Shown here piece after piece: positions 1,612-52,594 of a stretch of 64,000 bases of DNA (the stretch's first letter is position 1; the number at the start of each line of letters is the position of its first letter). Origin of the DNA: an uncultured Clostridia bacterium (lineage in GTDB: Bacteria > Bacillota > Clostridia > Oscillospirales > CAG-382). The stretch is taken from the NCBI GenBank assembly GCA_947628695.1, contig CANRAV010000013.1, positions 1 to 64,000 on the forward strand, given 5' to 3'. Position numbers and translations under genes: made by a program. The notes under the pieces were generated by a model, which was given only the letters and a program-made list of their open reading frames with translations, made no database searches and was not told the origin of the DNA.

Positions 1612-1800
1612 TTTCATACGTGTGACAAGCCTATACATGGCCGCGGCGCAGCTTGCGTTGCCAGCTCGGGATTCCAAAGGGCTGTGCCCTTTGGGCTAAA
1701 AAGCTGTGTTCTTCTGTAAACCTAACCAAAAACAGCCATGAAGGGACAAAAGTCCCTTCATAAATAGATAGGACGAGCGAAAAGCCCGTCCTGAATTATA
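1612..1800. repeat. Dispersed three-hairpin intergenic element, copy 1
   Basis: Shared blocks with copies 2 and 3: 'gcgttgccagctcggga-ttCCAAAGGGCtgtGCCCTTTGG' (hairpin 1674-1694), 'TGAAGGGACaaaaGTCCCTTCA' (1739-1760), 'AGGACgagcgaaaagccCGTCCT' (1770-1792). Confidence 0.85.
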
Positions 1801-27705: not shown

Positions 27706-27846
27706 AGCAACAAAACAAGCGCCCGCGCCTCAGGTTCTGCGCCTTGGCGGTTGAGGAAAAACGGATTCAGACGGGGTGAACTGAGCTGAAGCTGTACTAA
27801 GTACTGCGAGGCGAAGTTCGTCACGAACGAAAAAAATATAATAATG

Positions 27847-27895
27847 AGAGGGCAACGTGACGGCGCGCCGTCACGTTGCCTTCCTCTTTGATATT
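27847..27895. terminator. Bidirectional terminator between convergent genes (30-bp perfect palindrome core 27851-27880)
   Basis: GGCAACGTGACGGCG|CGCCGTCACGTTGCC; U-rich flank on the + side (ttcctctttg). Confidence 0.8.
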
Positions 27896-40369: not shown

Positions 40370-40371
40370 AG

Positions 40372-40601
40372 TTAATAGGTAATAGGTAATAGTGAAGAAG
40401 TGCGGATGAAAAAGCTGCGCTTTTTCTGCATTATATTGTATATTGCATAATCTAACTGTAACTTCGTGCGTTTATCAAATGCCTTTTCTGCTTGAATTAT
40501 TTTAAGTCTTTAGCCTCAAATTAGCAGCAGCATATTTAATTAAATAACGTCCGCCATAGGCGGACACCGCACTTCTTCACTATTCACTATTACTTATTAC
40601 C
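40372..40601. mobile_element. MITE-like element with terminal inverted repeats
   Basis: Left 'ttaataggtaataggtAATAGTGAAGAAGTGCGG' versus right 'CCGCACTTCTTCACTATTcactattacttattacc'. Inverted match, no ORF inside. Confidence 0.7.
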
Positions 40602-40620
40602 TTGCCGCCGGCGCAGCATA

Positions 40621-40800
40621 CGTGCAAACAGCCTATACATCAATGCGGCGCAGCCTGCGTTGTCAGCTCGGGTTTCCAAAGGGCTGTGCCCTTTGGGCCT
40701 AAAAAGCCATGATATTTGTTAAGCCTAATTTAGAGAGCCATGAGGGGACCGAGTCCCCTCATATAAAAACACAGGACGGGCGAAAAGCCCGTCCTAAATA
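40621..40800. repeat. Dispersed three-hairpin intergenic element, copy 2
   Basis: CCAAAGGGCtgtGCCCTTTGG (40676-40696), TGAGGGGACcgaGTCCCCTCA (40741-40761), AGGACGGGCgaaaaGCCCGTCCT (40773-40795). Confidence 0.9.
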
Positions 40801-40816
40801 ATAACTAAATAAACCG

Positions 40817-41788
40817 TCAGTTCTGCATATATATCTGCTGTCCCTCTACAAGCGGGTAGCTTACGAGAGCGGAGCCGTCGAGGTTTTCGCGGTGCATATC
40901 GACGCCGGTTATGCGGCTGTTTTCGTAGGTGGTGTAGTAGTAGATGCCCTTGTCGGTATTGCAGCAGGAGGAGTAGATGGTGTACTCGTACCCGCCTTCG
41001 ACCTTGCAGCAGCCGCGCTGTTGGGCGACGGAGGCGAGGATGTGGAAGAACTGGCTGACGCTTTCCGACTCTGTCTCGCCGGAAAGGGAATTAAGGCGTG
41101 TAAACGCTGCCTTGACGAAGCGCGAGGCAGAGGAAAGGTCGCCCGGCAGCCCCAGCGTGCCCATGCCGCGGCTGTAGGGCTTAAGCTTCAGGTCAGGCGC
41201 AAAGCTGTTTTTCGGATCCTCCGGCGACAGCGCCATGTAGTTTGCAAGATTTGTAAGGTGATAGTCGAACGGCGGGTTGTTTGTAAGCACCCCCGTCGGG
41301 TTGTCGTAGACCTTAAGCCCTTCTTTTACGGATTCCACAACTATGCTTTCGTCCCTGTCGGATATTATCCAGTGAAGCGGAGACAGCGGAAGCATGTCGC
41401 TGAAGTTCTCGTTAAGCAGGCTCAGGCGCGAAAGCAGCCCGCGCGCTTCCGCAACGGTCGCACAGCGTCCCAGTATCCAGGGGATAAACTCGAAGGGGGT
41501 GACGTTGTCCCTTTCGGGATCCTCCGGCTTGTAGTCCGCATTCCCCGGGAAGTTAAGCCCGGCCATGCTGAGCCCCTCTTCGTTTATCGCGTCGTAATAA
41601 AGCGGGTAGTTCTCCTGCACGAACGCCATGCCTATCATGGCGTAGTGGCTTTCGAGTACGCCCATTTTGCGGAAGCGGAACGGGTAGTTACGCGGTGTCA
41701 CGGTGACGGTTTGATTGTAGGCAAATTCATAGTCCAAATTCCGCCCGAAGTAGTGGTCCTTGGTTTTATAGGTTGCTGCTGTGCACAC
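40817..41788 (-). CDS. Choloylglycine hydrolase / bile salt hydrolase family protein
   Basis: Cys-2 'MCTAATYKTKDHYFGRNLDYEFAYNQTVTVTPRNYPF', 'LTNNPPFDYHLTNLANYM', 'LGLPGDLSSASRFVKAAF'. Confidence 0.9.
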   Translation of the reverse strand: MCTAATYKTKDHYFGRNLDYEFAYNQTVTVTPRNYPFRFRKMGVLESHYAMIGMAFVQENYPLYYDAINEEGLSMAGLNFPGNADYKPEDPERDNVTPFEFIPWILGRCATVAEARGLLSRLSLLNENFSDMLPLSPLHWIISDRDESIVVESVKEGLKVYDNPTGVLTNNPPFDYHLTNLANYMALSPEDPKNSFAPDLKLKPYSRGMGTLGLPGDLSSASRFVKAAFTRLNSLSGETESESVSQFFHILASVAQQRGCCKVEGGYEYTIYSSCCNTDKGIYYYTTYENSRITGVDMHRENLDGSALVSYPLVEGQQIYMQN

Positions 41789-50574: not shown

Positions 50575-50760
50575 TCATACGTGTGACAAACATAAACATC
50601 GCGAAGGCGCGGCCTGCGTTGCCAGCACGGGATTCCAAAGGGCGTGCCCTTTGGGAAAAAAAGAAGCTATATTCTTATTAAACAATAATTAGAGGGCCCT
50701 GAGGGGACCGAGTCCCCTCAAAAAAATATAAGGACGGGCGCGAAGCCCGTCCAAAAAAAT
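50575..50760. repeat. Dispersed three-hairpin intergenic element, copy 3
   Basis: CCAAAGGGCgtGCCCTTTGG, TGAGGGGACcgaGTCCCCTCA, GGACGGGCgcgaaGCCCGTCC; upstream block 'catacgtgtgacaa...gcctgcgttgccagcacgggattCCAAAGGG' matches copy 1. Confidence 0.9.
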
Positions 50761-50776: not shown

Positions 50777-52594
50777 TCACTGCGCAGTCACAGTAAAGGA
50801 ATCAGAGCCCAAAGTAAGCGTGTACTCCGCGCCGCGGGTAAGCGTAGGCGCGCTTAAGATAACCACGGCGTAGGGGAGTGCGGGAGACGCCGCAAGCAGC
50901 TCCTTTCCTTCCGCGTCGGTGAGGGAAAGCGCAGTTCCGGCAGGGATGTTGCCTACTCTGACGGCGACCACCGGCTGTGAGCCGTTGCCGAAGCTTTGCG
51001 CCATCCCCGCGCCGCCGGTGCCGATGAATGTGCCGCCGGTTACGGTGCCGGAGGCGTCGTAGTCGAGCGTGGCGGTGTCGCCCACAGTGGGGCCGCAGAC
51101 GGTGACCTCGCCGCCGGTGATGGAAAGCGTGCCGTTTGCGTCCATGCCGTCGCCGCTTGCCTCTATGTAAAGCTTCCCGCCGGCGACGGTAAGGCTGCCT
51201 CCGCCGCCCGCCTGCCCCGGGCCGCCCTGCCCGCCGGGCCCCCTGTGGCCGAAGGCGTCGCCGCCCATGGGGCCACCGAAGCCGCTTTGGTCAACGCCGC
51301 CGGCGGCGTTAAGCCCGTCGTCCGTCGCCTTGACGCTTATCTCGCCGCCGGAGACGGTAAGTTCGAGAGCTTCCAGTCCCTCGTAGCTTTCGGCTATGTT
51401 GACGGTTCCGCCGAGGATATTAAGGCTGTCGTCCGCGTGCATGCCGTCGTCGCCGCTTTTGATGTCAAAGCTGCCGCCGCTTATCTCCATCGCGGCGTTT
51501 GAATGCAGCGCGTCGTCTGCGCAGTCAAGGGCAAAGCTGCCGCCGCTTACATAAAGAGCAGTCGTCGCCTTAAGCCCCTTTGCGCTTTTCGCTGCGCTGT
51601 CTTCCGCCGTGCTTTCCGCCTCCCTGCCGAAGGGTCTGCCTCCGCCGGGGAAGCCGCCGCCGGTGTGCTCCTTCGATGCGTTTGCGCTTCCGCCGCCGGT
51701 GGTTACGGTAAAGTCGCCGCCTTTTATTTGAAGCGTCGACGACGCACATATCCCGTCGCCGTCCGCAGTTACGGTAAAGCTGCCGTCCTTTATGTAAACA
51801 AAGCCCTTTGCGGCGTCGTCGGCGTTGTCGGCGCGAATACCGTTGCCGCCGCTTGTTATGCTGAACGAGGCGGAGGTCACCCGCACGCTGTCGTTTGCGT
51901 CGCAGCCGGTCTTGGCGCATGTTATCTCAAAGCTGCCGCCCGTGAACACAAGGTCGTCCTTGCAGACTATGCCGTGCCCTGCGGGCGAGTCTATTGCGAG
52001 GCTGCCCGTACCGACAAAGCTTAGGTCGGAGCGCGAGAATACAGCGCCGTCCGTGCCGTCGTACAAAGCGCCGCCGAAGCCTTCGGCATTGGAAAGGCGG
52101 TTTTCGCTGCCTTCAGCGAGAGTTACAAACACCTTGTCGGCGGAAAGCACAAGCAGCGCCGCGTCCGCCTTGCAGTTTACGGACGCACCGTCAAGCACTA
52201 TCTGCGGCTTTGCCGTCTCCGGTGCGTCCACCGCTATCTGCCCGTCCTCAAGCGTGCCTTTTACTATGTATACGCCGTCTTCCTTTATTGTTATCCTCCC
52301 GCCGTCTACAGAGACGTTTGAGGAAGCGGAGGAAGCCGTGCCGTTCTCAAGCGTTATAAGGACGGCGCTTCTTTCGTCGTAGTCTGCCGCAAGCTCACGA
52401 GCCGTGAACATGTCTGCCTCTGCGGGCATGGCAGCGGAGGCAGAGGTGTCCGCAGACGACGGCTCTTCCGAGGACACGGCGGAAGAAGCGTCCGATGTGT
52501 CCACATCGGCGGCGCTTTCGGTGCCGCCTTCCTTGGCCGCACAGCCGCAAAGCAGGAAGGCAGCCGCCAAAAGAATCAAAAACGTCCTTTTCAT
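50777..52594 (-). CDS. DUF4353 carbohydrate-binding-type lipoprotein
   Basis: Lipobox 'LLCGCAAKEG'; repeated 'ISGGSFDIKSGDDGMHADDSLNILGG' beta-helix-like units. Confidence 0.8.
   Translation of the reverse strand: MKRTFLILLAAAFLLCGCAAKEGGTESAADVDTSDASSAVSSEEPSSADTSASAAMPAEADMFTARELAADYDERSAVLITLENGTASSASSNVSVDGGRITIKEDGVYIVKGTLEDGQIAVDAPETAKPQIVLDGASVNCKADAALLVLSADKVFVTLAEGSENRLSNAEGFGGALYDGTDGAVFSRSDLSFVGTGSLAIDSPAGHGIVCKDDLVFTGGSFEITCAKTGCDANDSVRVTSASFSITSGGNGIRADNADDAAKGFVYIKDGSFTVTADGDGICASSTLQIKGGDFTVTTGGGSANASKEHTGGGFPGGGRPFGREAESTAEDSAAKSAKGLKATTALYVSGGSFALDCADDALHSNAAMEISGGSFDIKSGDDGMHADDSLNILGGTVNIAESYEGLEALELTVSGGEISVKATDDGLNAAGGVDQSGFGGPMGGDAFGHRGPGGQGGPGQAGGGGSLTVAGGKLYIEASGDGMDANGTLSITGGEVTVCGPTVGDTATLDYDASGTVTGGTFIGTGGAGMAQSFGNGSQPVVAVRVGNIPAGTALSLTDAEGKELLAASPALPYAVVILSAPTLTRGAEYTLTLGSDSFTVTAQ

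Follow-up and report, generated by a model that had tools for sequence, protein, structure and literature searches.

What is the element that recurs, with the same hairpins in the same order, in three intergenic regions of one 64,000-nucleotide stretch of DNA (the window), and from which strand is it to be read? An earlier note on this DNA had described three such copies with a common block order and a single orientation, and all of them are indeed present on the plus strand, at 1615-1791, 40617-40794 and 50576-50752, with a mean column identity of 81% (short flanks included). Along that strand the element consists of a 60-nt head, a first hairpin (hp1), an AT-rich stretch and two further hairpins (hp2 and hp3). 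The lead-in block of the earlier note corresponds to a conserved block, but its true start lies earlier, at CATACGTG (positions 1615, 40617 and 50576), and the conserved unit ends with hp3. In copy 1, the head (a conserved block of ~60 nt, CATACGTG...TGCGTTGCC...GGGATT, 1615..1673) is followed by hp1 (CCAAAGGGCTGTGCCCTTTGG, 1674..1694) and hp2 (TGAAGGGACAAAAGTCCCTTCA, 1739..1760), all on the plus strand, and by hp3 at 1771..1791, which we assign to the minus strand. Copy 2 has its head at 40617..40675, hp1 at 40676..40696, hp2 (TGAGGGGACCGAGTCCCCTCA) at 40741..40761 and a minus-strand, terminator-like hp3 with the tail TGTGTTTTTATA at 40774..40794; in copy 3 the corresponding plus-strand features span 50576..50634, 50635..50654 and 50700..50720, and its hp3, likewise terminator-like on the minus strand, spans 50732..50752 with the tail TTATATTTTT. 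The three heads were delimited in an alignment of 40 copies, and an ATACGTG-type start and a TGCG are invariant among 82 heads. All three hairpins of the earlier description occur in the window copies, but hp3 of copy 1 (GGACGAGC..GCCCGTCC) carries a single A-C mismatch.

The element is not confined to the window. The assembly that holds it (1.97 Mb in 38 contigs, 87% complete) yielded ~45 copies in BLAST searches, about 75-87% identical, with more than 40 further places in the genome at E-values of 1e-58 to 1e-21. A covariance model built from 40 copies, the kind of search by which the earlier note had proposed to look for further copies, recovered 70 full-length (≥143 bits) and 31 shortened copies at E<1e-4, that is 101 places in the 1.97-Mb genome. 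Given these BLAST and covariance-model places, the copies are far beyond chance. No called gene overlaps the full copies. The same model found no copy in six congeners, and beyond the source genome the family search across 63 genomes (the source genome and the six congeners included) gave only three weak matches, of 30, 22 and 20 bits, all outside the congeners. Their alignments run mostly through A-rich spacers and generic GC hairpins, and it is doubtful that the matches are genuine family members. Two degenerate patterns of the head had no exact match in the GTDB species collection, from which the source species itself may be left out, or in IMG/VR. Taken together, the lack of congener copies, the weak outside matches and the unmatched head indicate that the family is, as far as searched, private to the source species. 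Rfam 15 gave nothing above the gathering threshold in the window, and 17 copy-bearing loci yielded just one tRNA and one L10 leader, nothing relevant; no described RNA family matches the element. The earlier description of a dispersed element with conserved hairpins holds.

We examined gene context by a heuristic ORF-based analysis trained on the window ORFs. In 57 of the 68 copies with a called right neighbour, the gene on the hp3 side lies on the opposite strand, with a median distance of 27 nt between its stop codon and hp3. An opposite-strand stop codon lies within 100 nt of the hp3 end in 53 of 70 copies (17 have none), whereas on the head side a sense-strand stop lies within that distance in just 8. 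Among copies with a stop on one side only, 47 have it on the hp3 side and 2 on the head side (sign test, p=4e-12). Thirty-eight copies stand between convergent genes, against 15, 9 and 1 in the other arrangements, and a few lie upstream of genes. The window copies conform to this pattern: hp3 of copy 1 is the first hairpin past the stop codon (TAA at 1814-1812) of a minus-strand gene at 1812-2093, at a distance of 20 nt, and hp3 follows the stop by 22 nt in copy 2 (a choloylglycine-hydrolase-family gene, 40817-41788) and by 24 nt in copy 3 (a Cthe_2159-family gene, 50777-52594).

The sequence of hp3 has the same polarity. At least six T in the 10 nt after hp3 were found in 63 of 66 copies when read in the sense of the adjacent gene and in 0 of 66 in the other, and by a generic terminator criterion 66 of 70 elements have a site on the gene's strand and none of the 70 has one on the other; a separate terminator scan calls copies 2 and 3. 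The plus-strand reading of the earlier note therefore has to be turned around for hp3, whose functional sense appears to be the opposite strand, terminator-like for the gene that ends beside it. Sequence and position together suggest that hp3 ends transcription of the adjacent gene in the cell. It need not be the sole terminator, since 18 of 70 copies have other minus-strand terminator-like hairpins in their left flank; between stop codon and hp3, a further terminator-like hairpin, mostly a second one of hp3 type, is present in 10 copies.

We consider it probable (roughly two chances in three) that the element is a species-private small interspersed repeat family, with hp3, its outer hairpin, serving as an intrinsic transcription terminator. 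Copies would then lie in the 3' untranslated region in a fixed order of stop codon, ~27 nt, hp3 with its T-tract, hp2, hp1 and head. On its way out of the gene, RNA polymerase would encounter hp3 before any other part of the element and stop at it; additional hp3 or hp2 palindromes could serve as back-up terminators or protect the 3' end. Provided that termination works, transcription from that gene would not reach the head. The conservation of the head would then find its best explanation in the DNA itself: this would be the part that is recognised or copied as the element spreads. The copies would most likely have arisen by dispersal of a non-autonomous element, with machinery acting in trans, and have been retained at sites where they stand in the right orientation and at the right distance for hp3 to terminate the gene. 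Dispersal and species restriction suggest that the element moves or has moved, and we presume both that the head has this role and that selection, not targeting, kept the copies in place.

Among known systems, the element fits best with the BOX/SPRITE-like small interspersed repeats, as a new family that carries a terminator and is private to its species. SPRITE is a small interspersed repeat that resembles an intrinsic terminator, occurs preferentially between convergent genes and where genes end, and has been suggested to be co-opted as a terminator, its mobilising IS not being known (PMC3049150). Our element has dispersed intergenic copies, a hairpin with a T-rich tract and enrichment at gene 3' ends, and is thus alike in kind, in its terminator-like signal and its position; SPRITE, however, is a single 18-bp duplex with a long T-rich tract, whereas the element has a 60-nt head and one to about five hairpins in ~101 copies. 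BOX of S. pneumoniae (boxA-boxB-boxC) is modular, with a variable number of internal hairpins, and mostly restricted to one species and close relatives (PMC3049150). The likeness to the element is one of modular principle, namely variable hairpin modules in a species-restricted repeat. In BOX the modules fold jointly, with the terminal repeats base-paired, whereas the palindromes of the element are independent, and the element, unlike BOX, has a terminator at one end and a fixed orientation to the gene. In Neisseria and Pasteurellaceae, a word repeated genome-wide (the DNA uptake sequence, DUS/USS) is described as forming terminator hairpins (Kingsford et al. 2007, in PMC2267715), which is the point of likeness; those short words also occur outside terminators, whereas CATACGTG is found once outside elements in 264 kb against ~8 expected, and we rejected an uptake sequence for that reason. 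Outside elements, TGCGCTGCC is somewhat above expectation (10 vs 2).

At one locus the ends of orthologous genes could be compared. Gene order around the host gene of copy 1 is common to five congeners, and the ends of its orthologues there carry unrelated hairpins, which are ordinary terminator-like stems in three and other hairpin repeats in two. Congeners G003 and G004 have a different dispersed hairpin repeat, around GTACTNAGTAC, and gene ends in the genus thus carry differing repeats by species. Of the GTACTNAGTAC repeat the window itself has one copy, at about 27769-27835. There, between convergent genes (27769-27885), a hairpin repeat of genus level (GAACTGAGCTGAAGCTGTACTAAGTACTGCGAGGCGAAGTTCGTC) is followed by a strong hairpin; related repeats are dispersed in G003 and G004. 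A more ambitious account of the same facts would be a self-spreading terminator cassette, a new kind of mobile unit that is directed to the 3' ends of genes, or exchanged there, replacing native terminators and reshuffling its hairpin modules, each species of the genus having its own version (this element here, the unrelated GTACTNAGTAC hairpin repeat in congeners). We regard this as arguable but unlikely.

Also unlikely is a purely selfish repeat that inserts anywhere but survives only between the 3' ends of convergent genes, as the least harmful place, its terminator signal having no function for the host. The 38 copies between convergent genes match the enrichment reported for BOX, RUP and SPRITE in pneumococcus, where it has been read as tolerance (PMC3049150). 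Tolerance alone, however, does not predict a single orientation (47 vs 2), a tight, one-sided stop spacing of 10-50 nt, or the position of hp3 where congeners have terminator hairpins.

How the copies differ from one another bears on how they were made. The earlier note had treated the three hairpins as a set, and they are conserved, but the set is one state among several of an element that is modular, with independent palindromes. Head-hp1-hp2-hp3 is the structure of 54 of 85 examined copies; another 8 have two hp3 within the stretch examined, and among the others are copies with a lone hp1, with two hp1, or with hp1-hp3. One copy has three hp3-like palindromes, one tandem array comprises three head+hp1 units, and about nine head-to-head pairs are separated by spacers of ~38-50 bp. 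Each hairpin exists in few alleles (for hp2 TGAAGGGAC, TGAGGGGAC, CGGAGGGAC, CGGAAGGAC and others; for hp3 GGACGGGC, GGCCGAGC and GGCCGGGC), which occur in many combinations among copies, including all four of the two main hp1 with the two main hp3 alleles. The compensated change that the earlier note had seen in hp2 of copy 1 (TGAAGGGAC/GTCCCTTCA versus TGAGGGGAC/GTCCCCTCA) is correct, and covariation does appear in the enlarged alignment of 40 copies: pairing cells amount to 97.0%, against 92.6% with shuffled partners, and 56 cells are changed on both sides, against a shuffled mean of 18. Among 1034 cells, in a count that does not control for relatedness, only 7 one-sided standard pairs stand beside these 56. 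With so few one-sided changes, the palindromes evidently change as blocks, which fits module swapping or template switching in palindromes as well as selection on the fold. The compensated changes are a handful of shared hairpin alleles rather than many independent events, and covariation is weaker evidence of selection than it appears; being mostly block replacement of whole palindromes, it is by itself no proof of selection on an RNA fold. Compensation thus persists, as the idea of a maintained structure had it, but with few shared alleles and hardly any one-sided intermediates it does not of itself establish that structure is selected. Perfect compensatory variation among the repeats of one genome can stem from palindrome block exchange, and calls for caution.

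Such block rewriting, with the shuffled hairpin alleles, is also what one would expect if the element were not mobile at all and gene-end modules had been copied by recombination, gene conversion and palindrome template switching, one cassette replacing many native terminators. Target duplications are indeed lacking, words common to both flanks being at the level of shuffled pairings. Conversion, however, requires a prior copy at every site, and the flanks of copies are mostly unrelated; we consider this account quite improbable.

It is harder still to uphold a multi-copy structured non-coding RNA transcribed from the plus strand, whose domains would be the head and the three hairpins. Copy 2 does fold strongly (z -4.1, computed on the minus strand), hairpin variants are compensated and the longest invariant runs of the element sit in the head. 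Yet Rfam offers no match, a plus-strand terminator is present in 0 of 70 copies, and the upstream flanks form unrelated groups in which no common promoter was seen. No column pair in 82 heads shows convincing covariation, and RNA structure in the head was rejected on that count. The family is private to one species, and such an RNA would leave the fixed place behind opposite-strand genes unexplained. This reading thus seems to us very unlikely.

A REP/REPIN-like element mobilised by a RAYT (Y1 HUH transposase) is scarcely tenable, for although the copies are short, palindromic and intergenic, single or in inverted, head-to-head pairs as in REP/BIME/REPIN systems, the unit is far longer than a REP and has a terminator at one end only, and Y1_Tnp (PF01797) has no match in the 87%-complete assembly (control genomes were positive; the gene may be missing from the assembly). 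RAYT/IS200 mobilisation was rejected for want of that transposase. The target-site duplications of a MITE of a DDE transposon are lacking; by eye, no terminal inverted repeats were seen between head start and hp3 end. A coding head was discarded as well: both strands looked open by eye in several copies, but at least one copy has a stop in the plus frame, and the frame breaks at hp1. Group II intron reverse transcriptases (RTs) were set aside, as no link between RT genes and the element was seen. Contig C36 has one RT with a maturase domain, and on contig C2 an RT-2 RNA (RF03077, L143:921-1196) overlaps the start of an RT ORF (L143:1084-2433).

The copies are unevenly distributed over the assembly. 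Eight contigs longer than 35 kb (C2, C4, C6, C10, C11, C17, C18 and C20; 618 kb together) hold no full copy, against 22 expected, which simple dispersal does not predict. The copy-free contigs make up about a third of the assembly, and stretches sampled from them also lack the other repeated words of copy-bearing contigs. The same congener is nearest both for window proteins and for proteins of a repeat-free contig, with identities in a similar order, and the difference in GC between copy-bearing and copy-free regions tends to recur in congeners; both speak for one genome with an uneven distribution of copies. A bin made up of two sister species would be compatible with this too and, if true, would alter the density reported here, not the anatomy. 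Outside elements, GAAGTGCGG occurs 13 times against 2 expected in 264 kb of copy-bearing stretches and is absent from 200 kb sampled from copy-poor contigs.

Other repeats occur in the surroundings of the element. A second dispersed multi-hairpin repeat of ~220 bp (GATTCCCGTTCACTCGCG...CTACCCCC...GGTAGGCACTCGCGGGAATCCAAGGAGAA and a terminator-like hairpin) is found at L018:1340-1500 (G000:C26:18629-18789) and ~30 further places, for example G000:C3:68315-68474. About ten of its copies stand directly in front of the terminator element; its hairpins vary, by eye, in a compensated way, and it had no Rfam match in the loci scanned. Upstream of several copies of the element, on the opposite strand, lies a repeated promoter-bearing block, TTGACA-17-TATAAT followed by GAAGGGC..GCC.ATA..CGG..GGCGG (flanks of G000:C12:51608, C8:75164, C1:186733, C7:11227 and others). 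In the window, an 89% inverted repeat (40370-40405 / 40567-40602) containing GTGAAGAAGTGCGG adjoins copy 2. The contig opens with a perfect ACAG tetranucleotide repeat (1-70), ahead of a GmrSD/HNH-type gene (479-1603).

If hp3 indeed terminates transcription, one recently spread repeat would have come to form the 3' ends of about 50 genes of one species. The family would then be a clean natural case in which to study how such repeats spread without a visible transposase and gain a host function, and whether selfish DNA can take an evolutionary route by way of terminators.
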